Source of the DNA: Pythium myriotylum
Taxonomy: Eukaryota > Oomycota > Peronosporomycetes > Pythiales > Pythiaceae
DNA length: 64,000 nt
Reading direction: 5' to 3'
Assembly: GCA_023091665.1 (NCBI GenBank)
Contig: JALJCQ010000008.1
Coordinates: 1,426,001-1,490,000 of the forward strand
The notes under the pieces are model-generated. The model searched no databases and was not told the DNA's origin. It was given only the letters and a program-made list of their open reading frames with translations. The translations under genes were made by a program, and so were the position numbers. Of the stretch, positions 15,442 to 51,007 are shown one piece after another (the stretch's first letter is position 1; every line of letters starts with the position of its first letter).

Positions 15442-17949
15442 AGGTACTAATCACCTGGGTTCTGTCAAATACCCAACGTTGGATTGCACCGTTTGATTGG
15501 CTGAAATATGAGTAGGGAGAACGTCCCTCACTCGCAGAAAGCAATTGGAGATATGGTGAAGTTGTTCTGCACGGTGGTCGGGGAGAAGGGAAACGCGTTC
15601 CCCGTGACGATCGATGCGAGCGAGTCGGTGGGAGACTTGAAGGACGCGATCAAGGCGAAGAAGAAGACGATCACATGCGATCCGGATGAACTGGAGCTGT
15701 TCCTCGCCAAGAAGGGCGACGACACGTGGCTCGAATCAAGCACAGATGACGTGAAGAAGCTCAAGAAAGGGGAAAAGACTGCTCTAATCGAAGCGCTGAC
15801 ACACAAAGACAATGAACTGCAGGGAGAGTTTGGCCTTGAGGAGGTTCTCGAGGGGATGCCAGAACTGAAAACCAAGCAAATTCACGTGTTGGTGGTGCTT
15901 CCTGCGCAATCGTTTGTCTCGACAGAGGTGGTCGCTGTTGTCAAGAAAAGAAAACTCGCTCAAGTGAGGGAATTAATCACGCCGTCTTCTTTTGCAAAGT
16001 GCAAGGGAGGCGGTAGCTGGGTGAAATGGCTGAGAAAACTCGATGGTCAGATTGAGTGTCATCGCATCGAACGTTCAGTCGACGAGACGCCGATTCCGCT
16101 TGTGCTGTTGAACAAGACGTTCGCGCGGTTCGAGGAGAATTGCAAGCAGATCGAGTTTGGCAACGAAGATTGCGAGTTTGTGACGAAGCTTTGCCATGGC
16201 ATGTCAACTCCTTACGAGAGCGAAGCAGCTTTTGCCGAAAAGGCACGGGAATTGCTGAGAGAGTATCTGCTTGCTGACTTTCCTGCTTCGACGATCACGC
16301 CTGTGACGGTCAATGGATCAGTATCAGATGGTTCGTATCGCTACGGAGAAACGCTGCTGTTGAACTTGGAATGCAAACTCCAGAAAGGAGATGGTGGTGG
16401 AGATCCGACAATGCAGAACGTTGCTTACTACATCAAGAACTTGCCAGACGAGATCGACCGCCAGTTCCCATGTTTTTTGGTGGATATATGTGGACCACTC
16501 ATGAGCGTGTTTGGAATTGTGAACACTGGCGACGAAAATGCGATTTGCGAGCCTCTAGTCATGAGCTTTCCGCTTCTTTTCTTCGACAACGAGTGGTTAA
16601 TGGTGTCGTTGACTCGTGCGTGTGTGTCTCTAAAAGCTGCACTAAGGGAACTCACGGAGGAATGCCAGCAGCTCGTTGCCAACCGTCGAAATCTCGCGAG
16701 ATGTCAGTATGCAATCGACCTCGATCGATTGAGTTTCCCGTACAAAGATTCTGTCGAAGTTAACGGGGCAACTATCTCACTGCAATACGTCGAAGTGGTG
16801 CAGCGGTACGTTTTTGTCGCGAAAGTTCAAGACGGAAATGAAGTTATCGTCAAGTTTGCCAAGCGATATGGTATGGAAGTCCATCAGTATTGTTCGAGTG
16901 CAGGGTTTGCTCCAGCGCTGATCTGCTGTGAATCCTTGCCCAATGGTTGGCTTTTCGTCGTCATGGAAAGACTTCCGTTGATACCACTTTCGCGAGTGGA
17001 AAAAGTCAATGGTAGGATGGTTCGTGACCAACTGATTGAGATCAAGAGTCGTTTGGCAGCTGCCTCTCTCGTCCATGGCGATCTTCGAGAGAACAACGTT
17101 ATGTGGGATCCTGTCAAACATCGAGTCGCACTGATTGATTTCGATTGGTCTGGAAAAGATGGAGCTGACACGTACCCGCCGTTCATGAACCCAGAGATAA
17201 TGTGGCCACCAGGAGCGGAGTCAGGGAAGCCTCTTCGAGTTGCCCATGATGCGTATTGGTTTGACGCGATGTGGTCCCGCTTGCATTGCGATTGAGTGTC
17301 AGTTTTTTAGGAGAATGTATTTTCATTTTGCTTGGTGCAGCTTTCGTTGGACAGGACGTAGGAACAACAACAGCATCTCTCTGATAGCCTGTCTAAACCG
17401 AGAGTAGCGAGGTGGTAGTGATTTGCCACCTATCCTGAGCGACTTCTTGAACAATATATTGATTTCCCTACGCTTGTTGGTTCTGATCACCTCTATTATG
17501 ATTTAATAACCTGCAGAACCGTGACAACGACTTGACAGATGGTACAATTCACATACCAGTTTCACATATGGAGGTTAAGACAAACAAAATGATTTTTTTA
17601 ATTCTGTGCTGAAAATTCGTTCAGGTTTTCTTTCAATGATGGGCATTTATTCTTGATATATTCATTTTTACACATCCAATTGAAATATTGGGTATCGTTC
17701 TCAACAATCCACTTTACGGATTTGTTGTTATGTTTGCCCCACACAGAAGTTTCGCTTCGTTGATATAGAGCGGGGCTTAGAGAACTTGTTCGAAAATCCC
17801 TGTGACTTTTCGAACTTCGTTCTAATAATTATGAATAGAATCAGACGTTATAGAGATACTGGACTTAATGAAGTTGCTCCAAAAGATTATCATAGAATCG
17901 ATGTAATAATGAAAGAAGTGGAGTATCTACGATCTGAATTAGCTAAAAA
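15442..17949. repeat. Right arm of the ~2.5-kb inverted repeat
   Basis: Reverse complement of 12424-15297 without the TRIM. It ends at the Helitron insertion point (17949/17950). Confidence 0.92.
15553..17295 (+). CDS. CRN: Crinkler (CRN) effector, copy 3 (right arm)
   Basis: About 580 aa from MVKLFCTVVGEKGNAFPVTI, the most canonical CRN opening of the three; an upstream Met at 15508 adds 15 residues. It carries LFLAK, HVLVVLP and the kinase-like HGDLRENNVMW and DFDWSG motifs, all intact. The C-terminal ~540 residues are identical to copy 2 on the opposite strand, pointing to recent inverted duplication or ongoing gene conversion. The upstream palindrome is slightly degraded here (CCCAACGTTGGA). 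Confidence 0.88.
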   Translation: MVKLFCTVVGEKGNAFPVTIDASESVGDLKDAIKAKKKTITCDPDELELFLAKKGDDTWLESSTDDVKKLKKGEKTALIEALTHKDNELQGEFGLEEVLEGMPELKTKQIHVLVVLPAQSFVSTEVVAVVKKRKLAQVRELITPSSFAKCKGGGSWVKWLRKLDGQIECHRIERSVDETPIPLVLLNKTFARFEENCKQIEFGNEDCEFVTKLCHGMSTPYESEAAFAEKARELLREYLLADFPASTITPVTVNGSVSDGSYRYGETLLLNLECKLQKGDGGGDPTMQNVAYYIKNLPDEIDRQFPCFLVDICGPLMSVFGIVNTGDENAICEPLVMSFPLLFFDNEWLMVSLTRACVSLKAALRELTEECQQLVANRRNLARCQYAIDLDRLSFPYKDSVEVNGATISLQYVEVVQRYVFVAKVQDGNEVIVKFAKRYGMEVHQYCSSAGFAPALICCESLPNGWLFVVMERLPLIPLSRVEKVNGRMVRDQLIEIKSRLAAASLVHGDLRENNVMWDPVKHRVALIDFDWSGKDGADTYPPFMNPEIMWPPGAESGKPLRVAHDAYWFDAMWSRLHCD

Positions 17950-32724: not shown

Positions 32725-34378
32725 ATGCATGTGTTTGCATATGTTGGTAGTGAAGACATTAATACCAACAACAAGTTACCAGTTGGCCAAGGTGAAAACG
32801 AAGCGCGTTCGTTCCTTGTTTGTGCTGGTGACTCAAGTCCTGGTCTGGAAAGACACTTCCAACTCCAGCCAGGCGAACGTCGTGGATGGTGGTCCATGCA
32901 CCCTGAGCCAGTTGGCCAGGCCAGAAATGCCATCGTCAACGGTGCCGTGTGCGACCGTAGAGCCCCCATCTTGCTGGATTCCGGCTCATCGTCTAGTATG
33001 GTCAGTCTGGACCTAGCTAGGAAGCTGGGACTTCAGCTCAAGTTCGGTGACCGGCTCAAGGTCAGCGGCATTGGCGGCGGCGTGACCTACGCCACAGCCA
33101 GAACCAGGGTTAAGGTGACGCTCGGCATGAGTGTCGCCTACTTTCTGGACCTCTGGGCTGGGAATATTGGCGAGGGCATCGACTGCTTGCTGGGACTCGA
33201 CTTCATGGTCCGGGCAGGAGTCCGGCTCTGTGCCTACGAAGGGTCGGTCCGGCTGCCAGACGAAGAGTGCATCCTGCTGGCCGCAGCTGGTCAAAGACCG
33301 AAGCTGCCAGAACGAGTGTCAGTCAGCACCCTGGAAGACATTTACTTGTCGCCGGGTCGCAGCACGCTGGCGCCAGCTCGTCATCGAGCTGGAAAGCTTC
33401 AGGTCTGGGCGTGTCGTCAAGACAACTGGGTGACAACCGTCGTCGTCGGGCCAGACGGCCAGCTTCAGGCCGTCCGAGTGACGAATGTGTCACCTCAGCC
33501 GATCATGATCCCAGCTCGGACGCCAGTCGCTCACCTGGTCGAGGAAGGCCACCTGCCGCTAGGCCAGAGGTGTGCCAGGCTCAACTCAACTAGGTATCTT
33601 GAGTGGCAGGTGCTGGTCTACGAGGGTTCTCACTCTAGCCGTTTCATCCGGGCGCAGGACGAGCTCATCGACGCCTACAACGCCAGTCTGCCTCCAGCTG
33701 TGGTTAAACCAGCCTACGACGCACCTAAGAAGATTCTGCCAAGGGGCGAGGTGCTCGTGGAGCTGGAAGATGTGCCAGATCTTCGTGTAGGTGCGTCTTC
33801 CCAGTTGGACCAAGCTGCTGTGGCATCGTCTGAGCCAGGAGGGCGATCTGCTCAAGGTGTCAGCGCCGAGCGACCACGCAGCGAGCCTGAGCCAGTCCAA
33901 GCGCGCGATCCAGGTTGTGCTCAACACGTCCAGCCAGAAGAAGTCGCTTTGGAGCTGGAAACAGCCGCGCCACCACCACCACGACAAGATTCCGTGCTAG
34001 CAACACTAGCTGCACGACTGCCCGAGCCAGGCACCAACTTACCCAAAGTGGCCGCTCCAAGCGTGCCTGTTGTACCGGCGAGCTCGTCATTGACGAGTGA
34101 GCTTACCGCCGAGGCGGGGTCTGCAGGCGCCGGAGTGGTTATGATTGATGGCTCTTGACCAGGTGCCAGACTCAGGCGAACCTCACTTGCTGCAAGTCGA
34201 GCCAGGGCGGCAACACTCACTGCCGGCTCGGCGACCCAGGACTAGTCAGGGGGCGACCTCTACAGCAAGTGTTCCAAGTGTGGTGGAGCGGCCCAATCCA
34301 GACGGGACGTGGCACAAGCAGCTGCGGAGGATGGGCCGACCCAGATCGAAGGGTGGCACCCAAGGCATTTGATGCAAG
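32725..34378 (+). pseudogene. pro: Gypsy-B protease and linker to RT, interrupted by C2
   Basis: Frame 32725-34158 has an aspartic protease core with active site ILLDSGSSSSMVSLDLA, the flap-like GIGGGVTYATART, and DCLLGLDFMVRAG. A long Pro/Ala/Glu-rich linker follows to the stop. A different frame then leads to VAPKAFDA at 34378, exactly where C2 is inserted; that frame resumes at 36104 after the C2 TSD. So pol was continuous here before insertion, apart from one frameshift near 34150. Confidence 0.85.
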
Positions 34379-34669
34379 GTGATCAGGACTTCGGGTAACA
34401 ACGGGCAACATCAAGGAGTCGGCATGAGTGTCGTCCGAAGCGGTGAACCGACCGCCCGCCCAAGGGAGGGCAGGCGATCGGCGGGAAGTGTGTTGAACTA
34501 ACCCAACGGCCAGGTGATCCGGCAGACGCCTTCAACCAGACGCACGGCCGCCGAGTGTCAAAGGAACCCCGAAGCGCCTAGGTGATCGACCGGTTCGAAC
34601 TACTGTGAGACGATCATCGAGATGCCCACCCGATCGGCCAAGCGATCCCCCGACCGCCTGGTGGAAGTA

Positions 34670-34749
34670 CGGATCGCCTAACATATCGACGGATCGGCTG
34701 AGGCATCTACCGATCGGCTGAGACATCTACGGATCGCCTGATGATTAGA
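34670..34749 (+). repeat. Tandem repeat, four 20-bp units in the C2 LTR
   Basis: Four consecutive 20-bp units of the form CGGATCGGCTGAGRCATCTA, each with a few substitutions. Confidence 0.85.
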
Positions 34750-35472
34750 CGGCACCCGGGTGGTTGCGCATACAGTTGTAGGGTTGTAGGGTTAGGGGCG
34801 TGTACCCAGTGTGTGAATCAGATAGTGTAGGACTCTAGGAAGGCAGGAAAACTCCAAAGGAATAGACTCTGCATTTCGCGACCAAGTACACAAGTCCCCA
34901 AGACGTACAAGGGAGTGCAGGGCTCACACAAGTCCCGTCACCGGCAGGGAGGTGACGTTAAAACCCCCGAGCCGCGCCAAGCAGCTCGCCTCAAGGCAGG
35001 CAGCCGGCGCGCGTCAGACGACCGCGCACCGCCGCCACAAGGAAAGGAAAGGCAAGGAAGACCAAGGGCGATCGCGAGACGATCCCCGGCGTTGTGAGTG
35101 CTTGACTTAGTCGCACGAGCGCGCCACCAAGCCCGAAGCGCCCGCGCTTCGCCCCACGCATCCGGCACAACCGTGTTGAGGTTGATCCGATCGGCTCTGC
35201 GTTTGACCGGCCGGCTGCGCGTCCTCGATCTACACGCAGCCACCAGAGCCGGAAAACCAAGGGATTCACGACCCCTTGGTCTCTCTCTCCCCCCGACTTC
35301 GGAGTCCAGAGCGCCCACGGTCCAGGCCACAGCGATTTTCAAGGCCTGTCGACGTCAGTGGTAAGTTGCTGCCCCTCGAATCAAGGATCAAGGTCTGTTG
35401 TGTGCACGGCTCGGCTGCTGAGGGGTTCGCTGTCCCCCAGTTTTAGCCGGCCGCGTTACCACAGTTGTGCGT

Positions 35473-36099
35473 ATGCCAGGAGGTAGCACTTCCATGGGCC
35501 CGAAGTCGAAGAGATCGACTCATCCAAAGCCGCCCGCCCCGTCGATCCCAGGCGGCCAAGGATCAAGAACTCGAGGATCGTCCGTAGCGGAGCCAGGTGG
35601 AGGGTCCCCACCGTCCGCTACGCAAGAACAACATGCTACCGATCGTAATGGACCCCCACGTGTTGACGTGGTTGGATCGGAGGGCGTCAGCGTTGCCCGC
35701 AACCTGACGCCCGAACTTGAAGAAGAAGGGAAGTCGGACACTTCAGAGACGGTCGACTTCATGGACGACGTCGCCGAAACGATCGACCTCACTAGTGCGA
35801 TCACGGAAGCGACAAGCGTACCTGACGCTCCGCAGACTCCCATCACACGAGCGGTCAATGCTGTGCCGCCGCAAGTCGACCCGACCGGCCCCAGAGTGTC
35901 ACCCGCTCGCGTGCTCGAGGTGCTGTGTCAGAAGCACGACGCGCTCAAGCATCTGCAAGTGACCAGGGTCGGCACAGGTACCAGTGTGCGCGATCCCGGT
36001 TTTGCGTCGATGATGAGCACGGCCGAAGTCCTCAACGGGATCATCTCCGTGTTCAACACTGCCGGCTACAGTGTCATGATCGCCGACCGCGTTACCACA
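35473..36099 (+). pseudogene. gag: C2 gag N-terminal fragment
   Basis: Starts MPGGSTSMGPKSKRS and matches the Gypsy-C gag N-terminus: disordered acidic region, PQTPITRAVNAVPPQVDPTG, ARVLEVLCQKHDALKHLQVT, ISVFNTAGYSVMIADR. It is then truncated; reading continues by accident into Gypsy-B to a stop at 36144. The nucleocapsid and all of pol are missing. Confidence 0.88.
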
Positions 36100-36103
36100 C
36101 AAG

Positions 36104-36718
36104 TCCTCAAGCTCCTGCCCAACCGCAGCTCACCATCGGTATGAAGCTAGTTCAGCGCCGAGTGAGCCGAGAAAGCACACCGATCCAGCGTCTCGCGTGC
36201 ACGTTCAAGCTGGTTTCGTCTCGAGATAACCAGGGTGACGACGATGCGGTCTCGTTTTACCACGAAGGCACCGACTTTGTGCTGCTCGACGAGCTCCGGG
36301 ACCAGCTCGCAATGCTCCCGGACCAGATCGACCTGGAAGCTCCAGTCGACATGGCCAGCGCCGATGTTGGCGAAGAAGGCGTGACCAGCCCAGTCCAGGA
36401 CCAGCTCATACGCGACGTGATCAACAAGCATGCGTCAGCGTTCCTGGGATCTGGCAACGCGCTTCCGCCTCCAGCTAGGGGCGTCGTCTGCGACATCGAA
36501 GTCGAGCCAGGAACCAGGCCAGTCGCCGAGAAACCCAGGCGAATCAAGTCGCACCTGCTTCCCCAGGTCTACGAGCTGCTCAAGAAGCTCCTCGATGCTG
36601 GAATCATCGAGTATTCTGACTCGGAGTGGGCCAGCCCAATTGTCATCGTCATGAAAAAGAACATCCGGCTTTGCATCGACTACCGGCGCGTGAACCAGCT
36701 GATCAAGCTCATGAACTA
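36104..36718 (+). pseudogene. pol: Gypsy-B reverse transcriptase N-terminal fragment
   Basis: After the C2 TSD the frame reads through MKLVQRRVSRES to the RT entry: ARGVVCDIEVEPGTRP, VYELLKKLLDAGIIEYSDSE, WASPIVIVMKKNIRLCIDYR, RVNQLIKLM. It stops being RT at 36718, before the fingers-palm catalytic motifs and the YxDD box, where an inverted Gypsy-B LTR begins (TGTGATGAAG). Confidence 0.88.
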
Positions 36719-36778
36719 TGTGATGAAGTGCGCTGCCTTTTCGCTAGCTCCTGGAGCTGGAAAAGGGTATAGACCTAG
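36719..36778 (-). repeat. Inverted Gypsy-B LTR, 3'-terminal piece (continues at 49937)
   Basis: Reverse complement of 29609-29668. The rest of this inverted LTR is at 49937-51007, on the other side of Gypsy-C. CTAG (36775-36778) is the Gypsy-C TSD. Confidence 0.9.
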
Positions 36779-37796
36779 TGTGGTAAAGCGGCCGAGAATT
36801 TTAGGGCACTAGACCGAGGTGATAGGCAGAGACTCTGGGTAGTACCGTAGGAGGCTCCAGACTAACCCATACTATTACTATACTCGGTATCAGCCGCCGG
36901 TATTACCGGCGGAACGGATACTGAGACGATTGTGCCATCCCATAGCCGATTGGCTAAAATGGGGGTCGATTGCGTAGCCGAAAGCCGCAGTCATCACCTG
37001 GATACAAGGGGGATGATCGGCAGGATACTGGCTGAATCGGCAGAAGAAGGGCATGTATTCAGCAGTAGTAATGGGTGTAGAGCCGGTAGCGAACTTAGGG
37101 CAGCCGAACTTAGCGTAGGGGTACTTAGATCAGCTGATGAGACCAAGGTAATAGACTTCCACTTTCACCGCCAAGCCCGCAAGCAAGCCGCGTCGTCTTG
37201 GCAAGGAACGTCGCATCAAGGCTCGCCGTCACCAACAGGAGGTGACGTTAAAGAAGACCCCGGTGGAACCTGGCTTTTGCTGTCAGGGGAAGCCGACGAA
37301 TCTCAAGCGGCCGACTTGAAGCGCTGGGGCAAGACTGCCAGCGGCGTCGGCTGCATCAAGGACAAGGACGCTCGTGTGCGCCGGTGGGATTGTCCCCCCG
37401 CCACGACAAGGCAAGGTTACGGTCTCTAGTGCTGAGCACTAGCGGATCTCACGCCCCAAGGAAGCCGCAGCCGTCTCATCGGCTGCGCACAAGTATTCCG
37501 AGCCCCTGCGTGTTGAGCAGGCGTGTTTCTCGGCCCGGTACAACCCCCGGCCCAACTCTGCGAGACGGTCTCCTCTCGGAGCTCAGCTGGCCGACCCCAG
37601 AGGCTTCACGACCCTCTGGCTTCCCCTCCCCCGACTTCGGTACCAGAGCGCCCACGGTTCACCCCCACAGCGACTTTCGTGGGGTGTAACGTCTGTTGGT
37701 AGCTCACTAGCACCAAGAATCTGAAGGCCTGTTGGCGAGTGGTCAGCTGTCACAAGCAGTCGCTGTGCAGTGATTTTGCTGACCCACTCTACCACA
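36779..37796 (+). repeat. Gypsy-C 5' LTR
   Basis: 1,018 bp, TG...CA; ends 9 bases before the gag ATG (37806). Includes the ~222 bp absent from the 3' LTR. Confidence 0.92.
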
Positions 37797-37805
37797 GCGG
37801 TGCGT

Positions 37806-39686
37806 ATGCCAGGATCTAGTGGCTACATGGCATCGAAGTCGAAGAGACCGCCAAGGTCGAAGTCACCTGTCCAAGCGGCCGCAGGTGACTTAGACTCGAA
37901 TCGAGCTAGGCCGCAACCGAGTTCTGCTGGAGAGCCCCCACCTGAACACGGTGACCAAGAACATGTCGATCTCGAAGGGCCCCCACGCGTGAGCGTGGTC
38001 GAAGGACGGTCGACATCGGATGACTCCATCACCCGCAACCTCCTCCCAGACCTCGACGAAGAAGCCAAGGACGGCGCCAGCGACGCTGGCTCGGAAGACG
38101 TCGACCTGAGTGGCGACATCGCGGAGCTGAACGTCGGCGACGATGCGACGGCTCCGACGACCCCGATCACCCGTGCCGTCAACTCGGTGCCGGTGAAGAT
38201 GGATCCCACCAGGCCGACAGCCGTGCCGGCACGGATGATCGAGGTGATCATGTCGAAGCACGATGGTCTCAAGCACCTCCAGGTGACCCGAGTCAGTGCC
38301 GCTGCTGATGTCCGCGACCCTGGCTTTGCGTCGATGAAGACTCAGCAGCAGGTGCTGCACGGCATCATCGGTGTCTTCAACACCGCCGGGTACAGCGTGA
38401 CCATCTTGGACAACGCCAAGATCCTCGCGACACGACGCGACAAGTTGATCGCGGGCGCTCAGGCGATCTTCGAGCTGTTCCTGCGCCACCAGTCTCAGCG
38501 CAAGCTCGAGCAAGCCATCGGTGCGAACCGTGGTGGGCTTATGGATGCTAAATCGCTGCAGAAGATCGCGGAGCAGGTCATCGGACGCTCCAGGGAAGAA
38601 GTCAAGCAGATGGAAGAAGAGATCATGCTGAAGGACAAGATGCTCAAGGATCTCGAGAACTACCTGCAAGACTTCGCCGACAGAGTCGCATCAGGTGAGC
38701 TGACCGCAGCTCAACTTGCGTCGGTGTCGACTGCGGCCGCGCCGACCGTTGCCAGTGCCGAGGTGAAGCCGACGGTCAATCCAGAGCCGAAGGTCAAGGC
38801 CGAGAAGCCGACTCCAGTCGCTAAGTCGCCGGCAGCCTGGTCCTCGACCGACTACCTGGCCGACATCTACGACGAGTGCGTCGCGCCAGGCGTCAGCGCC
38901 ATGACTCGCCTGCGGCAGTCAGCCTGTGCCGATCTGAAGTCGTTCGACGGCAAGTCTCGCGACGAATATCGCGGCAAGGCCTTCATCAGTTCGGTCCGTT
39001 CGGCGTTCCGCCAAGACGAGATGACCGATGGCCAATGCTGCCTGAAGTTCCCCGAGCTGCTCACCGGCGCGTCAAAGATCTGGTACAAGCAGCTGAAGAA
39101 GTCGACGCGTGCCAACTGGTCGCTCCTCCAAGCTGAGTTCGAGCGTGAGTACAGCGGTGCGACGGTCACGGCTCACCAGCGCTACTACGAGCTGCGCCGG
39201 AAGCCGAACGAAGAGCACCTCGACTACCTGTACCGACTCAACGTCCAAGCCATCGAAGCCGGCATCGACTATGAGGGCGCTGCGGCATCCTTCCACGTGA
39301 CTCACTTCCTCGACACGTGTGAAGATGCCGAGCTCGCACGCCAGTTCGGTCTTGTCAAGCCGACAACGGAGGAGCAGCTCCGTCAAGCGTTGAAGGAGCT
39401 GCTGCGCCAGAACCAGCGGTCGAAGCGCGACGAGTCGGCCAAGTTGCGCGCGGACAAGCGCGACAGCAAGCCGAAGCCGTTCATCGCCGGTTCCAAGCAG
39501 CGACCGATCGCCGTCAACGCGTTGGCGAAGCTGCTCGGGTCCTCGAGTCGAGCTGCCGAAGTCGACCTGTCAAGCGTGTCTGAGTCGAGCTCGGATGGCA
39601 GCGAGTCGGAAGACAGCGGAGCTGAAGATGGCGAAGGTGACGAAGGCGAAGATGCAGTGGAAGTTGCGGCTTGGCGACGATGCTAG
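37806..39686 (+). CDS. gag: Gypsy-C gag
   Basis: 626 aa from the ATG just after the LTR (MPGSSGYMASKSKRPPR). A disordered acidic N-terminus leads to a conserved helical region (ARMIEVIMSKHDGLKHLQVT, GVFNTAGYSVTILDNA), a coiled coil (about residues 255-300), and the capsid-like domain (EYRGKAFISSVRSAF, ASKIWYKQLKKSTRANWSLL, LRRKPNEEHLDYLYRLNVQA). It ends in a Ser/Glu/Asp-rich tail. The zinc knuckles are not in this frame but in the overlapping next one, so nucleocapsid would need a frameshift at 39671-39686. Confidence 0.92.
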   Translation: MPGSSGYMASKSKRPPRSKSPVQAAAGDLDSNRARPQPSSAGEPPPEHGDQEHVDLEGPPRVSVVEGRSTSDDSITRNLLPDLDEEAKDGASDAGSEDVDLSGDIAELNVGDDATAPTTPITRAVNSVPVKMDPTRPTAVPARMIEVIMSKHDGLKHLQVTRVSAAADVRDPGFASMKTQQQVLHGIIGVFNTAGYSVTILDNAKILATRRDKLIAGAQAIFELFLRHQSQRKLEQAIGANRGGLMDAKSLQKIAEQVIGRSREEVKQMEEEIMLKDKMLKDLENYLQDFADRVASGELTAAQLASVSTAAAPTVASAEVKPTVNPEPKVKAEKPTPVAKSPAAWSSTDYLADIYDECVAPGVSAMTRLRQSACADLKSFDGKSRDEYRGKAFISSVRSAFRQDEMTDGQCCLKFPELLTGASKIWYKQLKKSTRANWSLLQAEFEREYSGATVTAHQRYYELRRKPNEEHLDYLYRLNVQAIEAGIDYEGAAASFHVTHFLDTCEDAELARQFGLVKPTTEEQLRQALKELLRQNQRSKRDESAKLRADKRDSKPKPFIAGSKQRPIAVNALAKLLGSSSRAAEVDLSSVSESSSDGSESEDSGAEDGEGDEGEDAVEVAAWRRC

Positions 39687-40030
39687 CGCCGGAGTCCGTG
39701 CAAGCGGTGACCAAGCTCGTCGCCGTCCTCCAAGGCCGTGACAGGGTGGGCAAGCCGAAGGGTGAGGTGTCGAAGCCTCAACACCCATGCTCGCACTGCG
39801 GCTCGAAGCGCCACCAAGACCGCGATTGTTGGAGTCGTATCACTTGTACGGTGTGCGGTCGGCTCGGTCATCCGGCCGACTATTGCTACCACCGTTGCAA
39901 GGGGTGCGGCAATGTCCACGATCGTGGTGCTTGCCCGCTGGAGGAGCTCGCAAACCACCTGAAGGCGTGGTTCGACCCGACGAAGCACGCTGGCGTCCTG
40001 CCGGCGGCCGTCGAAAAGTGGTTAAACTAA
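39671..40030 (+). CDS. Gypsy-C nucleocapsid, -1 frame relative to gag
   Basis: 119 aa in the frame overlapping the gag end by 16 bases. It has two canonical knuckles, CSHCGSKRHQDRDC and CTVCGRLGHPADYC (C-x2-C-x4-H-x4-C), and a third variant CKGCGNVHDRGAC, then a short helical tail. In Gypsy-B the single knuckle is in the gag frame, so the frame change is either element-specific translational frameshifting or a mutation. Confidence 0.85.
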   Translation: MATMLAPESVQAVTKLVAVLQGRDRVGKPKGEVSKPQHPCSHCGSKRHQDRDCWSRITCTVCGRLGHPADYCYHRCKGCGNVHDRGACPLEELANHLKAWFDPTKHAGVLPAAVEKWLN

Positions 40031-40080
40031 GCCGCCCGCCAGTTTGGGGACTGGTACGCGCCGGGCGGCAACCCGAGGTC

Positions 40081-42201
40081 GCAGTGTATGCGTTCGTAGC
40101 CAGTAGACAGCTACAGCGTAACAAACAAATACACTCGATTCTTGATCAACCACTTGAGTTCGAACGTCATGCTTTTATTCAACGGCTTACTCTACACCCT
40201 GGTGAGCGGCGTGGGTACTGGCGGTTCTACAACCAGAAGTCCCATCGCCAAACCATCGTAAGGGCGCAGATCGACGACCATAACGCGCGGGTCCTGTTGG
40301 ACTCGGGCGCCGAGGTCTCGATCCTCGACTCCGACTTTGCGCGTAAGATCGGAGCCGAGGTAGACACCAGTGTGTCTCTGCGCTGCGAAGGTGTTGGAGG
40401 ATCCGGCTATCCCACCGAGGGCCGGGCCTGGATAAAGGTGGTGCTGGCCGGCGAGCTGGCGTACCAGGCCGAGGTCTGGGTCGGTCACCTTGGCAACGTT
40501 CAGGCGATTCTCGGTACCGACTTCATGACCCCGGCCGGCATCCGCCTCGACTTGGCCGGAGGCGTCGCCCTCATGCCGGACGAAGTTCGCGTCCAGTTTG
40601 AGGGCCGCCGAGCCGTCTACAGTGACAAGGCAGAGCAAGTCAGGGTCAAGCGAGAGGTGACGATCCAGCCAGGTGAGTCACATTACCTGCGGATCAAGCC
40701 GAACGCCTCCAAGAAGCTGTGGGTCCGCCGCGACGAACGCTGGGTCACGACTGCCGAGTGCAACGAGCGTGGCCTGCCGACGCGGGTCAAAGTGACCAAC
40801 ATCTTCACGGTGCCGGTTACCTTGCCCACGCAGACGATTGTTGATCTCTGGCTGAGCTCGGGCGCCGCACCTCGACGCTCCGGGTACGTCTCTCTGGGCT
40901 CGAGGCGGTACGACGAGTGGTGCACCCTCGTGTACGAGGCCGAGCCCGAACCGGAGCTTGAGGCACGGCGCCAAGCTGAAGCCAACGCGGTCCGGGCGGC
41001 GCAGCCACCGGCGGTCGAACGACGCCCGTATGTGGTGCCGCGCGCGATCTTGAAGCATGCCGACGCCGCGGTGGCGACGCCGCCGAGGGCGGGTGACTCG
41101 AGGAGTGAGCTCAAGGTCTCCGTCGAAGACACGCTCGGGGGGGCGACATCCGGCGACGAAGACCAAGGCGACGTCACGACGAAGCCGAGAGCCGGACAGC
41201 GTGTCGTCACGACGAAGATGACGACGTCCGACTGGGCCAAGGTGGCGATACTCTTTGTCGCAGCCAAGTCCCCGGCCGAAGTCGTCGACAGCCAAGGCGA
41301 GCTGAGCGAAGCAGTCTACGTGCATGAAGGAGGCGATATCAGCGCTGAAGACATCGACGGCCAAATGGCCATGATCCCAGAGGTCCCAGCCGGAGACGAC
41401 GAGATCACGCCTGCCAACATCAAGATCGCGGCAGGCGAAGATGTCAGTGCCGAAGACGTCGAGCGTGTCCGCGAGATGGTGTGGAGGCGACGCCCGTACC
41501 TCATGGGCAAGGGCAATGCTCGGCCGTTGCCGGCCAAAGGCGTCGTCTGCGACATAGACGTCGGTGACGCCAAGCCCATCGCTCAAGCGTGCCGCAAGGC
41601 GCCGCCACAGTACGTGGAGAAGCTCTACGAGCTCCTTAAGGGACTCCTCCAGGCGGGCTTCATCGCGCCATCGACATCGGCTTGGGCGTCTCCCATTGTG
41701 ATCGTCGTCAAGAAGAACGGTGTTGATATTCGCCTCTGTATCGATTACAGAATGGTGAACGCCCTCACTAGGCTGATGGTCTACCCTATGCCTGTCATTC
41801 ATGACCTGTTGGAAAATCTCGGCTCGCTACGATGGCTTTGCTCACTAGATATGGCGTCAGGATTCTGGGTCGTGCGAATGACTGCAAGGGCTCGGGCGAT
41901 TTCGGCTTTCGTGACACCCTTCGGGTTGTTTGAGTGGCTAAGGATGCCGTTCGGATTGAAAAACGCTCCCCAGATATATCAACGGCTTCTTGATAACGCG
42001 CTCTATGGCTACCTGAAGCTGACGCCCAAGCACCTGCAGGACAAGGAAGCTGATGTGTTCGAAGATGGTAAGCCGGCCGGAGCCGAGACGCGACCAGCGA
42101 TAGGTCGAACATCGTACATTCACGACATCTTGTTCGGCGGCGAGACTTGGGATCAGATGTGTGAGCGGTTGGAGAGACTGCTGCAGGCCTGCGAGGAGTA
42201 G
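40081..42201 (+). pseudogene. pol: Gypsy-C protease and RT, RT catalytic box altered
   Basis: A third frame. Protease active site VLLDSGAEVSILDSDFA and partner QAILGTDFM. A disordered linker (~41000-41230) is followed by RT entry (KGVVCDIDVGDAKPIA), WASPIVIVVKKNGVDIRLCI, SLDMASGFWVVRMT and FEWLRMPFGLKNAPQIYQRL. The catalytic box reads Y-I-H-D (42112-42123) instead of Y-x-D-D, a GAC-to-CAC change. A ~33-residue insert precedes the box (KHLQDKEADVFEDGK region). TAG at 42199-42201 cuts the frame before the thumb. Confidence 0.88.
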
Positions 42202-45200
42202 GGGCTTTCGATTAGCCTCCCGAAGAGCGAGTTCGGCATGAGCCGTGTCGACTACCTAGGGCACTCGGTTTCCGCGAAGGCATCAGAGCGAAGCCGAAAA
42301 ACCTCTCCGAGCTGCTGCAACTCGAGTTTCCTAAGACTCTGAAGGGGATTCAGTCGTATTTGGGCTCTCTGAACTATTATCATCAGTTTATTGAGCACTT
42401 TGCGGTCTATGCGGCCGCACTCTACGAGGTTACCCAGGCAGACTTGGCCAAGGATGCGCTAGAGCCCGGTCATCTCGCGTCTGCTCGACGGGCCTTCGCA
42501 GAGCTCCAGCAGAAGTTGGCGAATGCGCCGATCCTGAGGCACTTCGACGCCGAGAGGCAGCTGGTGGTCATCATTTACTCGAATCCGTGGGCTGTCGCTG
42601 CCACACTGGCGCAGGAACACGATGGGAAGCTGTTGCCGGTGAAGTTCTTCAGCAGGGTGCTGAAAGTCCACGGAGCCAAGTTCTCGCCAGCCGAGAAGGA
42701 GATCCTTGCTCTGTTCCACGTGCTGTCCGGAGCGGCGAATATGCTGAGTGGCCGCGCTATCCAGGTGCTGACGCGGTTCTCCACGTTCGGTTGGTTGTTC
42801 AAGGCGAAAGGTCTTCAAGGTCGTTTGGAGCGGTGGGCTACTGTGCTGAGTTCATGGACGCTCGAGATCGTAAAGATCAAGAAGGACGAAGATGGCTTGA
42901 GCGGATTGGTCGCAGCCGCCACGGGCCCTGCGGACAAGATGGACGAGATGCTTGGCGACATTCAGCCGAGGAAAGGCGTCGCAGGTGAACGACATCGACT
43001 GCCCGTGCCGACATTAGCGAAGGATGAGGCCGCGTGGGTTGTGTCTTTCGAAGGATCGGCGAAGCCGAAGCGGAACGGGGCAAGTTGCGGCGTCATCCTG
43101 TGGTCGTTGCCAACGTGGAAGGTAGTCGCTGCCGAGACGTGTTTCTTCGCCGACGGAACGGTTAATGAAGCCGAGTACAGGGGTGCTATAGCTGCCATGG
43201 ATCTGGCTATACGACACGGTGTCCAGGATGTGATCGTCTGCGGCGACTCCCGCATCGTGATCCAGCAGCTGAGAGGTGACATCGAGTGCCGTACAGCAGG
43301 GCTCCAGGTTCTACGCGCCGAGGCGCTGGCGAAGCTGAGCGTGTTCAAGTCGGCTTACCTCGTACATGTCGCTCGAGACTTCAATGCGGCCGCCGACCTC
43401 ATCACGGGCAAGGCGCTGCAGCGCTGTGCCGGCGGAGTCGTCGACCCGGCCGAGCATGCCGGTATGAGAATGCTGAACCGCCTCCCTGAAGTCCTCAGGC
43501 CGAGTGAAGACGAGCCGGCCGCGGCTGTCCACGTGGTGACGCGCGGCGGTGCCGCCACGGGCGCCGATCATGGCCAAGACGCGACCCGACAGCACGAGGA
43601 GGCCGAAGGGCAAGCGAGCAGCGGCGATCGAACTCACGGGCGTCTCCGACGGCGCGCAGGCGACAATGACGGGGTCGAGAGAGCTGCGGCGCTGCCACAG
43701 TCGACAGAGCTCAACGGAGCCGCTGACGGAGCGACGGGGCGCACAGGCGCACGTAAGGTGAATAGCCGGGACGTTCCAACTCGCCAGCGCCGTGAAGGCC
43801 GGCGTGGGAACACAAGCGACGAGGCGCCCACAAGCGACCCGAGCCGGCGAGTCACGTTTGATCTTCCAGCAGTCGGCAGCGAAGCTCCAGACGATTCCGT
43901 CGATCGTCCAGCAGTGCGCGAGCGTCCAGCTATCAACGAACGTCTGCCTGCTGACGCGATGGCTACAACTGAGAAGGGCACCGATGGACGCGTCGCCAAG
44001 GCTCGAGAGTCAGTCGAAGATTCAGCGATGTACCCAACGGACATAGCCAGGCGCGGTGCGCACCATCAAGAAGCGACACGGCCAGATGATGACGAATCCA
44101 GTATCGCAATCAACGATGACGCGAACATAGCCAGGGCGGACGGCCCACACTTCGGCGTTGACCAGCGTGATGACTGCGCAAGCCCGGGGGACACTTCGCG
44201 GGACCCGACAGTTGAGTCCGGCACGGCGTGGGTCGAGCGACTGCGCGCGGAGCGCATCTCGACGGCGCAAGACGAAGAACGATGGAGCGCCAACGTCAAG
44301 CGCTTCCTCATGGGCGACGTCGCCGCGCTCAGCGACCAAGAGCGCGCCGCGTGCGAGAAGCTCGCGCCGTCGTATGAAGTCGTCGACCGCTTGCTCTACT
44401 ACGTCGGCTACCAGAAGACGAAGGATCGAGAGCGACGCGAGCTGCGCCTCCGACTCGTCGTGCCGTCTACTCTACACCGTGAAGTCCTGCATCACTACCA
44501 TGTCAGCTTGGCTGGCGGCCACCAAGGGGTGAGCCGCGTGTACGAGAAAGCCCGCCGTTATCTATTCTGGAGGAATATGTACGCTGACGTTCGCGACTAC
44601 GTGGCTGGGTGCCCAGATTGCCAGTCCGGCAAGGGTCAGCCGCGGATTCAAGTCCCGTCGCCAGGGAATATCGTCGCGACTCGGCCGTTTGAAGTGGTCG
44701 GCATGGACCACGTACCGTCGCTGCCTAAGTCGCATCGCGGGAACACAGAGCTCTTAATTTGGTTGGATCAGCATACGGGCTTCGTCATCGTATCGGCAAA
44801 CCGGTCTCGAGAGGCCCAAGAAGTGGCGGAGTCGTACGAGCGTTGCGTGTATAGGCGCTTCGGTGCGAGCCGAGTCATTCGACACGACCGCGAGCCGGCA
44901 CTTATGTCGGCCGTCTTCCGCGCATTCAATCGACTGATCGGCCAGAGGAGTCGTGCTACGCTCGCCTATCGGCCTCAGTCTAACGGCATGACGGAGCGAA
45001 TGGTACAGGCGGTCGTCCACGCCGTCAAGCTCTATGTGTCCGATCCTCAGCAAAGAGACTGGGACGATTATGCAGAACGGCTCGTGTTTGCGCTCAACTT
45101 GGCTCACGATCGCGTCCGCGGCGACTCGCCATTCTACCTGCTACATGGGTGGGAGCCTCGAACGACTCTCGAATCTGTGCTGCCGACGGCAGACCAAGAC

Positions 45201-45872
45201 GGCCACGCCGATGCGAGACGATGGCGATCGGCCGTCCAGATCCAGTACCAGAAGGCACGGCAAGACGTGGTTCGGCTACTCCGTCAAGCGATGGAAGAGC
45301 GTCGAGAGGCGAGCGAGTCAGCAGCCCGCGGCGACACGTCCGCGATAGTCCCGGGCGCTAAGGTGTGGGTCTACATTGACCAAGTCAAGCCAGGTTTCGC
45401 ACGTAAACTCGCACATCTATGGCACGGCCCATTCAGAGTGCTAGAGCGACCGGCCACGCACTTGGTCAAGCTGGAGATCGAGGGCTCGGCTTACCGAATC
45501 TTCCCCACCGTTCACGTCTCGCGCTTGAAGCTGTGGCGCAGCTTCGAAGATCGCCCCGCCACAGAGCTGGAAGTTCCAGCTGACGCTCGGCTCGACTTCG
45601 ACGAGGCGCTGCTTCCCGAAGTCTCGCTCGAGCCGGACAACGACGAAGGACATTACGAGGTCGAGGCGATTATCGGCCACCGCGACGTACGCTCTGCTCG
45701 CCAAGGGCGGCCTATTCGCGAGTACCACGTGAAGTGGGTCGGCTGGGACACGCCAGATTGGATCGCCGAAGACGACATGAACGCGCCGAGCCTCATCGAA
45801 GAGTACGAGCGACAGCTGCGCGCCGAAGGACGCTTTGCCGCGATGGCGACCGAGATCGAAGAGGAGGAATAA
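42202..45872 (+). pseudogene. pol: Gypsy-C RT thumb, dual RNase H, integrase and chromodomain
   Basis: After TAG, GLSISLPKSEFGMSRVDYLG continues; a frameshift near 42270 leads to REGIRAKPKNLSELLQ, and the frame is then open to 45872. The conventional RNase H (42500-42950) has lost acidic positions (IIYSNPWAVAATL, VLTRFSTFGWL). A second, archaeal-like RNase H follows (43030-43440: VVSFEGSAKPKRNGASCGVI, EAEYRGAIAAMD, CGDSRIVIQQLRG, DFNAAAD). A disordered linker precedes the integrase with H2C2 finger (HHYHVSLAGGHQG to CPDCQ) and an intact D-D-E (GMDHVPSLP, RHDREPAL, GMTERMVQ). A chromodomain ends it (YHVKWVGWDTPDWI). Confidence 0.92.
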
Positions 45873-46188
45873 TACTCGGCCAGCTGCGCAGTGATCAACG
45901 CCGTCCAGGAGGCGGCGTCCGATGCTGTATGGCTCCGAGTTGGCGTAACTAACGCCGGGGTTAGTCAGGTCGTTGCCCTGGCTAGCTGACTGCGGCGAGG
46001 TTGTGGCCGGTGGGAGGCACCGGCAAGCCATTCGGTGGACATGCATATTGTATAACGTGACGTGAAAAGATGAAGGAGACAAGTTCGACTGCCTACGGAT
46101 CAAGTGAAGAAGAGAAAATGAAGTGATTATTACGATTATCTGCGAAGACGATTTCCTATGGTGTTCAACTGCTACCGAGCTAACAGCG
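45873..46188. other. Spacer between Gypsy-C pol end and the antisense gene
   Basis: About 316 bp between the sense stop (45872) and the antisense stop (46189-46191); the two genes converge here. Minus-strand frames extending into pol are Arg-rich shadows. Confidence 0.6.
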
Positions 46189-48923
46189 CTAGATCTGCGC
46201 AGGAGCGGCCTTCCCTGGGCTGATACTCGAAGCTTCAGCGGTCGACCCGGCACGGGACGCATCAGCGGTAGCGGGAGGCAGCAGGCTCGAGGGAGCCGCC
46301 GACGGCTTGGCAGACGCGGGCGTGGTCGGTCCTTGAGGCGCCAAGCTGCTTGAAGGCGAAGGTGTGCGACCGCTGGTAGCGGTCGACGCGTCGGCTCCCG
46401 TGCGACCCGACGGTTTCGCAGTATCGACAGCTTGAGACTTGGTCGCGGCCACGCTGGACATCTTCGGCTTACCGCCGCTCGTAGGCGATGAAGGAGTGCT
46501 CTTCGTGCGCCATGGCTGCTCATCCGCCGTCGAATCGTCGTTGCTCTCCTCCACACCCTCCTTCTCCTCCTCATCGGAGGAGACCTCGAGGCGCTTCCGC
46601 TTCCCTGACACACGACCCGACGCCGACGGAGACGACGGGGCACTCTTGGACGGCGAATCGCGCCAGAACTTGTGGTAGATGCGGCTGCGCACCGATTGGG
46701 AAGGGTGAGCCTCTGGCTTGAGCAAGAAGAAAGCACGCTCTGGTTCGGCTTGATCAACACGATCAGCAGCTGCAAGCACAGTCTCGTTGGGCATCGGCAG
46801 CAGGTACACAGTGCCGATCGGCGGAGCAATGAGGAAGAAAGGGTCCAACAGTAGATCGGCGTCGATGTCAGGATTGTCGTCAAGGAACTTGGACAGACGC
46901 CGACAATGGGCCTTGACCTGAGTCTTCGTAGTCGAATGCCGCTGCTTGCGCTCCTCGCGCCACTGGCGATCGACCGACGACGGCACGACCAGGTAATGCG
47001 TCCGCTCGTAGAAGGTGCGAATCACCAGCCTGTAAAAGGCCATGGTCTCAGTGTAGAGCCCCACGAAACGATCGTCGGCATAATTGAAGGTGATCGGCTT
47101 GGGGATCATCTTCAAGAACTTCTTCCACCGAGCCGCGGCGTTCCAAAGGGTGATCTCAGCAGCGTCGACGTCGAGGCGAGCATTGGCTTCTGTGAGGAAC
47201 TTTGTGTCTTGGTTGTAGTTTGGGGCCACGGCTTCGCAAGGGAACAAGCCCAACCGCCACGCGAGTCGCTCGATCTGATCAGCCGACAACGTCGAAGGCG
47301 GCCCACTTTCCGGCCATCCAGCTGCCCAGATCGGATATGACTCGCGCATCGAATTCAAGGTCGACTGAGAGACGTAGTTGGCGCCTCGCTCGGCCGACGG
47401 GCCCGCGGTAGTGGCTGAAGACTTTCAGCCCTGATTCTTCGGCACCGGTGATCCACGCGAGTCGGTGAGATCCACGACGTCCTGCGGAGTCGGATCCGGA
47501 GAAGGTTGGCTCTGCGGCTGCGCCACGGCAGCAGCCCCCTCTCGGTTCTTCTTCGCCTTCTTCTTCGTAGGTGCCTTCGTGCCCGCCGGCGCAACACGAC
47601 CAGAGACAGCGGCGTCCGGGCTCGGGCTGCGGGCGGAGTTGCCGCCTCGCGCCTGCGACGACGGAGCCGCGCTGGCCGAAGAGTCGCCCGTTGAGCCTAG
47701 CTGTCCGGCGATAGTGCCGCCGAAGCCGCCACCAAAGAGGGAGCCCTGCTCGAACAGCGACTCGAGCTCGCCGCCGCCGAGATCTTTCAAGAACTGCTCA
47801 ATGTCGTCGTCTGGCCGAAGATTCTCAATCTTCTCCATAAGACGAGTGCAATCGTTGACAATCTTCTGCCATATCATGAACGTGTCAGTGGGCACGGAGG
47901 GGTCGGCCTTCGATATCTCGGCAGCCATCGTGGTCAGGGCATCAGATCCGCTGATCCGAAAGGCGTTCGGTGTGAGGCGTGACACCAGTTGATCAAAGAC
48001 AGGCGTCAAGAACCCCAGGGTGACACGGGGAGCCGAAGGGTTCGCTTCGCCGCGAAGCTTGTTGAGGACACCAAGAGCCGTCGACACTGCACCTGCCTCG
48101 CGAAAACCAGTGAGCAAGACAGGGCCGATCAGCTTCTCATACTTGAGCAAGGCGGCTCGCGCTTGGGCGAAGATCGCCTGGTCACGGCATCGGCCGTCAT
48201 CCGCCGACGAATTGCCCCTACCGTGCCGAAGCCACGGTAATTCGCAATCTCTTGGTTCATATCGCGAAGTGAGCCCAGACTGCCGAGGCGCCTGTAGGCC
48301 TTGTACTTCCGCTCGAGATCCGCCTGCTCCGCTGTCGCAGCTGCGGCCACCTTCTCGGCCGCGTCGAGCCGGTCGCGCAGTGAATCGCGCTCCTGAGTCA
48401 CAGTGTTCAGCGTCAAAGCGTCGCGCTCGCGTTCATCACGATAAAGCTCGAGCCGACGGCGAAGGTCAGCCACCTCGTCAGAGGCAGGTGTCGACGAGGG
48501 AGCGTTCGCAGGTGGAGGACTAGCAAGTTGTCGACTGGCCTCAGCCTGGGCACCGGAGTCAGCTAGGGAACGGAGGCGGGCGGCACGGCGGACGGCAGCG
48601 ATGTATAGACGCACCTTTGACCGTTCGAGTTCTTCGAGGCGCTGAGCCTTGGCCCGCAGGTCGATGAGCTCGACGTCCGCACTCTTCACTCGCGACTTCA
48701 ACGAGGCGAGCTCGGCAGCGAGCGTGCTGCTCACTGATTCGAGGAAGCTTGAGCAGGCGTCGGAAGACTAAAGAGCGGTCGAGGCGCGTTCCAACAGCGC
48801 AGTCAACCCACGCAGTTGCTCAACGGACAGCGGGACTGTCAGGTCAGAAATCGCCTCGAACAGATCACCCGCGACGCCTGCCAGCTTGGAGCGCGCGAGT
48901 TTGACCAAGCGCGCTTCACTCAT
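46189..48923 (-). pseudogene. Gypsy-C antisense gene (~900 codons), three lesions
   Basis: Starts at the minus ATG 48923 (MSEARLVKLARSKLAGVAGD). The frame holds to a TAG (48768-48770), then continues into a coiled-coil-rich stretch (SLKSRVKSADVELIDLRAKA; LRRRLELYRDERERDALTL). A frameshift near 48160-48180 leads to LLKYEKLIGPVLLTGF and a helical domain, then a Ser/Pro-rich region with a basic patch (KAPTKKKAKKNRE). A TGA at 47425-47427 interrupts it, followed by a second folded region (ARWKKFLKMIPKPITFNYAD, MAFYRLVIRTFYERTHYLVV) and a tail with SGKRKRLEVSSDEEE (nuclear-localisation-like). It begins ~210 bp inside the 3' LTR on the opposite strand. I recognise no family. Confidence 0.65.
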
Positions 48924-49136
48924 CTGCAGAGCGATGTGAGCAAGCGAACAACTCCATGATGACCGGAGAAGAAGCGGTGCGTACCGTCAAGGGAAGACCG
49001 GAGGAGAAGACGAAGTGAAGGGGCCGAAAGCTGTGCGGCTGCTCCAACGGCGTGATCGGCTGATGTGTGGTGACTCGGCCGAGAGGAGTTCTCCCATCAC
49101 CCAAGGTCTGCGACCAGGCCGATGGGAGACGGGCGC

Positions 49137-49932
49137 TGTGGTAAAGCGGCCGAGAATTTTAGGGCACTAGACCGAGGTGATAGGCAGAGACTCTGGGTAG
49201 TACCGTAGGAGGCTCCAGACTAACCCATACTATTACTATACTCGGTATCAGCCACCGGTATTACCGGCGGAACCGATACTGAGACGATTGTGCCATCCCA
49301 TAGCCGATTGGCTAAAATGGGGGTCGATTGCGTAGCCGAAAGCCGCAGTCATCACCTGGATACAAGGGGGATGATCGGCAGGATACTGGCTGAATCGGCA
49401 GAAGAAGGGCATGTATTCAGCAGTAGTAATGGGTGTAGAGCCGGTAGCGAACTTAGGGCAGCCGAACTTAGCGTAGGGGTACTTAGATCAGCTGATGAGA
49501 CCAAGGTAATAGACTTCCACTTTCACCGCCAAGCCCGCAAGCAAGCCGCGTCGTCTTGGCAAGGAACGTCGCATCAAGGCTCGCCGTCACCAACAGGAGG
49601 TGACGTTAAAGAAGACCCCGGTGGAACCTGGCTTTTGCTGTCAGGGGAAGCCGACGAATCTCAAGCGGCCGACTTGAAGCGCTGGGGCAAGACTGCCAGC
49701 GGCGTCGGCTGCATCAAGGACAAGGACGCTCGTGTGCGCCGGTGGGATTGTCCCCCCGCCACGACAAGGCAAGGTTACGGTCTCTAGTGCTGAGCACTAG
49801 CGGATCTCACGCCCCAAGGAAGCCGCAGCCGTCTCATCGGCTGCGCACAAGTACTCCGAGCCCCTGCGTGTTGAGCAGGCGTGTTTCTCGGCCCGGTACA
49901 ACCCCCGGATTTTGCTGACCCACTCTACCACA
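49137..49932 (+). repeat. Gypsy-C 3' LTR (internally deleted)
   Basis: 796 bp; matches the 5' LTR except for a 222-bp gap after GTACAACCCCCGG (~49908) and about three substitutions. Probable antisense promoter for the gene at 46189-48923 (inference). Confidence 0.9.
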
Positions 49933-51007
49933 CTAGCGTGTATATGGGAATACACGCAGGCGAACTTGGGCCCGTTGTGAAAACCCAAGTTCTGGCTTCG
50001 TACCTCACGTTATGTATCCCTTGACCGGTTCTTTTGAGCTTTGAAGTATGGGGAAATACGTCCACTTGGAGTATTCCACCAACCCAAGACGGCTTAACCA
50101 GCTCTGGGTAACGATGAGGACCAGTCTTTTGATACACATATACAAACGACACACTTAGACCCAGGACGGAAGACTAACTTCGATCCGCTGGGTCTCGCCT
50201 GGGACGGAGGACGACCTCGATCCGCGAGGACACTGGAAATCCCCTCTGGGATCTGGGAGACTCTCTCTCAACCAAATGAAGTGTATTACTTTAACTGGGG
50301 AACTACGACCAGTTCCCAGCTATCGCAACACAAGAATACGCGAGAATATGGAGTGCTCCAGGTCTCTAGTACAGAGTAGTACCCTTTGCAAGTGCCTCAA
50401 GGGCTGGAAAGGGGGTTGGCTCCTCTCCTCACTCGCAAACACACCAATACCCACGCACCAGCAGCCAGACACACGCGCACACAGTCCACTACGGCAAATC
50501 CAACACACGCAGGCTTACCTTGTGGCGTTGACGCTGGGTCCTCCCGCGGTTTGACGGAGGAGACTTGGGGAGTTGAGAGCAAAAAGCGAAGTCTTTTCAA
50601 TACAGGGTAAAACCCTAAGGGGAGCCAGGAACTGGCTCCCTGAACCCTACCTACTTAACTACCAGATCTGATAATAACCCTACTCTGTGTGGTCTAACTG
50701 GAAATTGCCCAATCCGAACTGGGAAAACCGGTAGGAACTGGTTTCCGGAAAGGATGAATCTGGTCAACATCCGGAGAAAGCCAGCTCAAACCAGACAGAA
50801 AATCACCCACTGGGAAGGTCCAGTGGATGAACCCAGCTCTTGGAACACTGTGCCAAACTGGAAAGGTGGGTGAGTAGCTGGTACAGTGTACCAGGCTACC
50901 GCCACCTACTAACTCTTGTCATTTAATTTCCTAGTCAACTAATCCAGCTCTGTGCCAGCTCACACAACCTGGGACCAGGCTGCAAAAGACGCGGGCACTT
51001 TATCACA
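49933..51007 (-). repeat. Inverted Gypsy-B LTR, main piece
   Basis: Reverse complement of the Gypsy-B LTR, continuing 36719-36778 across the Gypsy-C insertion. The inverted homology extends ~60 bp further to 51068, matching 52716-52776 upstream of the direct LTR. 49933-50998 contains only shadows of LTR frames. Confidence 0.9.

Follow-up and report, generated by a model that had tools for sequence, protein, structure and literature searches.

An antisense protein gene between pol and the 3' long terminal repeat of a Chronos-like retrotransposon in Pythium myriotylum

Can a Ty3/Gypsy retrotransposon of an oomycete carry, on the strand opposite to gag and pol, a protein gene of its own, and what might such a gene do for the element? 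The question is raised by a 64,000-nucleotide stretch of the Pythium myriotylum genome (assembly GCA_023091665.1, positions 1426001–1490000 of contig C8, JALJCQ010000008.1), here called the window, whose own numbering is used below. A long terminal repeat (LTR) retrotransposon spans 36779–49932 of the window, with a 4-bp target-site duplication, CTAG, at either end. A sequence-only reading of the window had proposed that this element ancestrally encoded an antisense protein between pol and the 3' LTR. The region holds a protein gene that has been kept by selection, and in several families of elements relatives of this gene come after pol, encoded on the other strand.

A protein gene kept by selection

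In the window copy, the minus-strand frame of about 900 codons is broken where the sequence-only reading had found it broken, by TAG at 48768–48770, by a frame-changing deletion at about 48180 (noted there as a frameshift near 48160–48180), and by TGA at 47425–47427. The gene converges with the sense pol, as had also been stated, and its stop codon lies about 320 bp from the pol end. The start had been placed about 210 bp inside the 3' LTR; the LTR alignment instead puts the ATG 213 bp internal to the LTR boundary, which leaves a spacer between the two.

46189–48923, minus strand: antisense gene, broken here by two stops and one frame-changing deletion
48924–49136, no strand: 213-bp spacer from the antisense start codon to the 3' LTR; candidate antisense promoter region (putative promoter function)

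Same-genome searches, which covered 58.7 Mb in 55 contigs, found 11 near-full copies of the antisense region, namely the window copy and 10 others with 91–95% identity to it, together with 14 further partial matches. The frame was unbroken in two of the 11 copies (915 and 921 amino acids) and broken in nine, and each of the two stops of the window copy was absent from all 10 other copies. In terms of substitutions, the variants shared among the 11 copies comprised 52 nonsynonymous and 104 synonymous changes in the antisense frame versus approximately 104 and 49 expected (ratio 0.24, n = 156, p = 1.2e-18). The ratio is of the dN/dS type, and its expectation was obtained by placing the observed mutation types on the same sequence, with one count per variable site. 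The shared variants fell on codon positions 1, 2, and 3 in the proportions 27/26/103, and the singletons gave a ratio of 0.49 (n = 256, p = 2.3e-8). At the 3' end of pol (its last 993 bp), the same copies, one of which covered just 386 of the 993 bp, gave corresponding ratios of 0.13 for shared variants (n = 46) and 0.40 for singletons (n = 74). The antisense gene is thus under purifying selection, somewhat weaker than that on pol. The ancestral protein gene of the sequence-only reading is borne out by the open frame in other copies, by ratios below 1 with the expected codon-position bias, and by the homologous antisense genes described below.

A sense-strand frame in the same region also gave low ratios (0.26 for shared variants and 0.59 for singletons) and was rejected as a gene; the sense frames of the region hold 19, 25, and 28 stops, and the low ratios arise because the third positions of this frame mirror those of the antisense frame. 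Two of the near-full copies, at 690850–693596 (L008) and 730604–733350 (L006) of contig C31, are 40 kb apart, 99.6% identical, and have one frame-changing gap in common, and represent either a segmental duplication or a mobilised defective copy.

A chance open frame, produced by high G+C content and codon mirroring, has to be considered here, since the gene has a G+C content of 62% and the same element contains spurious antisense frames as long as 480 codons. The existence of such frames makes conservation, rather than length, the main evidence for the gene. Even so, the 915-codon unbroken frame of another copy compares with a maximum of 392 and a median of 211 codons when the region of that copy is shuffled (500 dinucleotide shuffles), and the other five frames of the region carry 19–28 stops. 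Purifying selection in this very frame, the homologs, and the shuffles refute the chance explanation, to which we give practically no credence, and we regard the antisense frame as almost certainly a real protein gene.

The spacing between the start codon and the 3' LTR was 213–214 bp in the eight of the 11 copies that were checked. One match to an oomycete initiator consensus, at -96, is a candidate that establishes no promoter.

Relatives in other families and linkage to pol

A protein search of the same genome revealed relatives of the antisense protein well beyond the family of the window element (family A), at 27–39% identity. In family B (L052), the stop-to-stop frame has 810 codons, with 35% identity in tblastn (822 positions) and 39% in a codon alignment (743 codons); the change per codon position between A and B was 0.49, 0.41, and 0.67, highest at the third. 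Family C (L053) retains the C-terminal part (33% over 273 residues), and at least one stop cuts its frame upstream, while family E (L057) has a frame of 762 codons (30% identity over 171 residues, E = 1e-16). Families B, C, and E all have the antisense gene beyond pol and on the other strand. An additional type, F (represented by L055), has a frame of 699 codons in the same place and orientation. In a profile comparison it scored 31.4 against A, and 200 column shuffles reached at most 24.8; HHalign gave probabilities of just 6% and 14%, and HMMER gave nothing. Type F is probably homologous to A. A retroviral env or env-like gene was rejected as an identity for the gene, as it would need the sense orientation after pol, whereas the window, L052, L053, L055, and L057 all have it in antisense.

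Outside this genome, the C-terminal query region matched a single protein, P0001, a metagenomic protein of 980 amino acids (34% identity, E = 3e-30). The full-length query had no match at E ≤ 1e-3 in the protein database, and P0001 as a query returned itself alone, in searches that detect just those relatives with short exact words in common. Among viral contigs, 112 pattern matches were obtained, none of which was confirmed.

The element that hosts the gene has the following features.

36775–36778, no strand: left target-site duplication, CTAG (sequence; matches 49933–49936)
36779–37796, plus strand: 5' LTR, TGTGGTA...TACCACA (alignment to the 3' LTR; end motifs)
37806–39686, plus strand: gag open reading frame (ORF), 626 amino acids from ATG (Retrotrans_gag PF03732, E = 8e-5, slightly under the curated cut-off)
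39787–42201, plus strand: protease and first part of the reverse transcriptase (gag-asp_proteas, RVT_1)
42360–45872, plus strand: rest of pol, with the native RNase H, an archaea-like second RNase H, integrase, and chromodomain (RT_RNaseH, RVT_3, Integrase_H2C2, rve slightly under the curated cut-off, Chromo)
43038–43449, plus strand: archaea-like second RNase H domain (solved RNases HI 3hst, 3aly, 2ehg, and 4e19, E 3e-11 to 7e-9)
49137–49932, plus strand: 3' LTR, 222 bp shorter than the 5' LTR through a single internal gap
49933–49936, no strand: right target-site duplication, CTAG (sequence)

Of the solved structures matched by the second RNase H, we take 3aly (ST0753), 2ehg, and 4e19 to be archaeal or archaea-like RNases HI. 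The chromodomain that ends pol scored 26.3 bits for Chromo PF00385, against a cut-off of 25.1. A dual RNase H whose second domain is archaea-like and a chromodomain at the pol end, adjoining the integrase, are both features given for Chronos, a Ty3/Gypsy group of oomycetes found in Peronosporales, Pythiales, and one Aphanomyces copy and counted at 1,555 in Phytophthora infestans (Ustyantsev et al. 2017, main text and Table 1 of PMC5348765). The window element therefore appears Chronos-like, a label based on domain layout rather than placement in a reverse transcriptase tree. The main text of that paper contains no occurrence of 'antisense', 'additional ORF', or 'ORF3', and 'antisense' occurs 0 times in the main text of the 2023 Chronos follow-up. 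Nor was any antisense ORF of an oomycete element named in the titles and abstract openings surveyed, with subscription papers, supplements, and Repbase outside the scope. Relative to the published main-text description, the antisense gene would be an addition that enlarges the account of the Chronos group.

To describe how the gene is distributed relative to this type of pol, a 380-amino-acid dual-RNase H query was used, with 108 scored places (places, not elements) among 560 candidates. At 61 of the 108 places, or at 56 of 103 after pieces of one element were merged, an antisense-protein match lay downstream on the other strand, no more than 8 kb away. By type, the 61 comprised 16 A, 8 B, 8 C, 1 D, and 1 E (34 for A–E) plus 27 F. 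Only three same-strand matches were in range, all near two further elements. With bands of RNase H identity used in place of a tree, matches were found at 16 of 18 places at ≥90%, 17 of 19 at 57–64%, 1 of 3 at 50–52%, 1 of 28 at 44–48%, and 26 of 40 at 36–43%. Among the places without a match at 36–43% (14 of 40) and 50–52% (2 of 3), L056 has another Gypsy element following pol; others may have lost the gene or hold one that is too diverged. Conversely, 55 of 80 antisense places were explained by a scored RNase H place, and 25 had none nearby. This set of 80 was compiled by hand, with adjacent pieces of one copy collapsed and four very weak places retained; six further F-type places rest on E values of 3e-7 to 1e-4, and five of these are among the 61.

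L054, the representative of the 44–48% band, has an integrase and a chromodomain, but no antisense frame of at least 150 codons was present in the 3 kb following its pol. About 2 kb after pol, it has a sense frame of at least 947 amino acids that matches nothing significantly in Pfam and is not similar to the window gag. On contig C22, at approximately 649–821 kb, eight scored RNase H places of this Chronos-like family (44–46%) lie on both strands, mostly about 21.4 kb apart (18.6–26.4 kb).

The antisense product and its possible role

The antisense protein was aligned using two family-A copies, two family-B copies, C, and P0001. The alignment begins with a coiled-coil-like N-terminal part, continues with a linker that is loose and contains basic stretches, and has a conserved region towards the C-terminus; these parts correspond to the following positions in the window.

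48180–48923, minus strand: N-terminal part of the product, apparently rich in coiled coil (a tblastn segment; coiled-coil-type matches under the threshold; a low-confidence model of P0001 with long helices)
47464–47478, minus strand: VVDLT, a SUMO-interaction-like motif in the linker, downstream of a basic KKKAKK
46650–47320, minus strand: conserved C-terminal region (conserved in families A, B, C, and E and in P0001)

Conserved stretches of the C-terminal region in A include PKPITFN..D.RF..LY, ERTHY, DLLLDPFF, and PERAFFL. Within the otherwise loose linker, VVDLT in A, LVDLT in B, and VLDLT in P0001 are retained, and VVDLT was found in 10 of the 11 family-A copies. VVDLT resembles a SUMO-interaction motif.

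Our best explanation is that the region is the 3' accessory protein gene of a Chronos-like Ty3/Gypsy element, encoded opposite to gag-pol, with a regulatory role; taken as a blend of gene and mechanism, we give this roughly even chances, and the regulatory mechanism by itself is put forward tentatively, as something short of probable. In this mechanism, antisense transcription would start in an integrated copy from a promoter in the 3' LTR or in the 213-bp spacer. The product would multimerise via its N-terminal coiled coil, enter the nucleus via the basic patches of the linker, and act on the chromatin or expression of the element itself, partly via the SUMO-binding-like motif. The product would accordingly be an accessory protein with a regulatory function after integration, a stage that is favoured because an antisense message cannot derive from the genomic sense RNA.

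Several observations weigh against this explanation. Nuclear action is suggested by the basic patches only, and the expression of the antisense gene and its product are predicted from DNA sequence. No DNA-binding or enzymatic domain was recognised, as Pfam, NCBIfam, and PDB gave only sub-threshold coiled-coil or chance matches; the sequence-only reading, which had recognised no family for the protein, was right on this point. Both structure models are poor, with a mean predicted local distance difference test score (pLDDT) of 39.6 and 45.2, and the SUMO-type motif is clear in three of six protein types (A, B, and P0001) and not in C, E, and F. In the linkage data, 27 of the 61 matches are of type F, which is just probably related to A, and five of these 27 are weak (E 3e-7 to 7e-5). 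Furthermore, considered as an antisense additional ORF (aORF-3R) of LTR retrotransposons, the gene is found in most copies, is carried by related families, and is conserved like the other genes of the element, yet no match was found at 27 of 28 places in the 44–48% band. This dual-RNase H subgroup seems to do without the gene, suggesting that the gene is not required for every such element, and it argues against a strict link between the dual RNase H and an antisense gene.

Other functions can be proposed for the same gene. The product might serve Gag or the particle as a structural or packaging partner, that is, as a coiled-coil assembly protein rather than a nuclear regulator. The coiled-coil-like N-terminus, for which there are sub-threshold matches and a low-confidence model, agrees with this, and so does its rate of evolution, as the antisense proteins of families A and B have approximately 35–39% identity and pol 61–80%, suiting an assembly protein. 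However, such a product would come from an antisense transcript of the integrated copy and not alongside the sense RNA, and the basic linker and SUMO-type motif would point to the nucleus. We consider a structural role unlikely. It is also conceivable that the antisense RNA is the functional unit, pairing with the sense RNA and thereby feeding silencing or self-limiting the copy number, with the protein of minor importance. Convergent genes give overlapping transcripts in principle, and two Gypsy-type elements in Phytophthora infestans have small RNAs mapping along them on either strand, as far as the text of PMC3522703 describes them. An RNA function nevertheless fails to explain the codon bias of 27/26/103, the ratio of 0.24, and the 27–39% protein identity between families, and is in our estimation very improbable.

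The gene could also have been captured from the host, or have arrived with another mobile element that inserted here, and have been kept afterwards, in line with a product unlike any known retroelement domain. As an account of the present state this is weak, given that position and orientation agree across several families and at 61 of the 108 places; as an account of the origin it is conceivable, and three protein searches, limited to relatives sharing short exact words, found no cellular relative. We regard capture or insertion as improbable, and return to a selected accessory gene with a regulatory product as the reading to be compared with known systems.

The plant elements Retand, Grande, and RIRE2 belong to the Tat lineage. 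The literature covered describes an antisense gene in this position, after pol and before the 3' LTR, for Grande, RIRE2, Retand, and PvRetro13 of plants and for the fungal Boty of Botrytis cinerea (PMC7264820), and among the Retand clusters studied, 97% have a TRP28 domain encoded in antisense (PMC11963269). The Grande protein GENE23 is described as having nuclear localisation and a promoter upstream of its gene (PMC7264820), and the plant antisense ORFs are described as conserved, with a suggested nuclear or DNA-binding role (PMC11963269, PMC7264820). Tat elements are also reported to carry a dual RNase H (PMC10508981), which was reportedly gained independently in plant Tat and oomycete Chronos (PMC5348765, PMC10508981). 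The window gene is like those of Tat and Retand in being antisense and located between pol and the 3' LTR. Unlike Retand, which is described as a non-chromovirus, the oomycete elements examined here have a chromodomain. No sequence relation was detected between the Tat and Chronos-like antisense genes that occupy this same place, and TRP28 (Transposase_28, PF04195) matched none of the six aligned proteins at E values up to 5 and neither of one E and one F protein at E values up to 0.5. The Boty ORF is likened by its published position, as given in PMC7264820.

The place of the oomycete gene, and perhaps its role, can be compared with those of the plant Tat-lineage antisense proteins, and HBZ of human T-cell leukaemia virus type 1 (HTLV-1) may be added by analogy only. 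HBZ differs in its start and splicing. The likeness lies in an antisense gene of an integrated retroelement, the HBZ product being nuclear in the text of PMC11963269, and no sequence relation is claimed. The sequence-only reading had seen here a candidate for an undescribed system. This holds for the protein family and for an antisense gene in oomycetes, of which the searchable literature gave no description, but not for the kind of gene, which is known from plant Tat-lineage and some fungal elements in the accessible text of PMC7264820 and PMC11963269.

A wider reading, which we consider doubtful, is that Tat and Chronos each independently gained an archaea-like second RNase H and an unrelated antisense regulatory gene in the same place, representing one recurrent retrovirus-like way of life. 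Joined to it, and equally speculative, is the proposal that the gene of the oomycete elements represents a new family of proteins without a recognised domain, in which a SUMO-binding-like linker would tether the element to the chromatin of its host. LTR retrotransposons have repeatedly evolved an antisense gene in the position between pol and their 3' LTR, and for the plant cases, as presented in PMC7264820 and PMC11963269, no function is agreed that would say why. The oomycete case is an independent replicate from distant hosts, for which no sequence relation was detected, and it too concerns elements that have a second RNase H. It also offers many copies, a subgroup seemingly without the gene, and features that can be tested, namely the coiled coil, the SUMO-type motif, and the C-terminal region.

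The window copy and its neighbours

The 5' and 3' LTRs of the window element were identical at 769 of 772 aligned positions, with a further 25 bp aligned at the end, and from these three mismatches the copy looks like a recent insertion. Both its antisense gene and its pol are broken, the pol reading frame being interrupted between 42201 and 42360. Gypsy-like coding sequence with a protease domain and a reverse transcriptase-like stretch lies immediately to the left, at 32725–36778, and a 63-bp stretch of it (36442–36504) is 71% identical to positions 41501–41563 of the element itself. The element seems to have interrupted this Gypsy-like sequence.

Elsewhere in the window, a 473-amino-acid frame at 10391–11812 on the minus strand had just a weak BED zinc-finger match (E = 0.03). 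Three open frames of 595 amino acids each are located at 6489–8276 (minus), 13442–15229 (minus), and 15508–17295 (plus), the first of which scores as the N-terminal domain of a Crinkler effector, fitting an oomycete host. The part of the window at approximately 6.3–17.9 kb contains three long repeat pairs with 97–99% identity, one direct and two inverted. Two of the 595-amino-acid frames are flanked by segments at 12981–13137 and 17600–17756 that match positions 8171–8327 of L052 in opposite orientations; these positions are perhaps inside the 3' LTR of family B, with one TGTGGTA at L052 position 7727.
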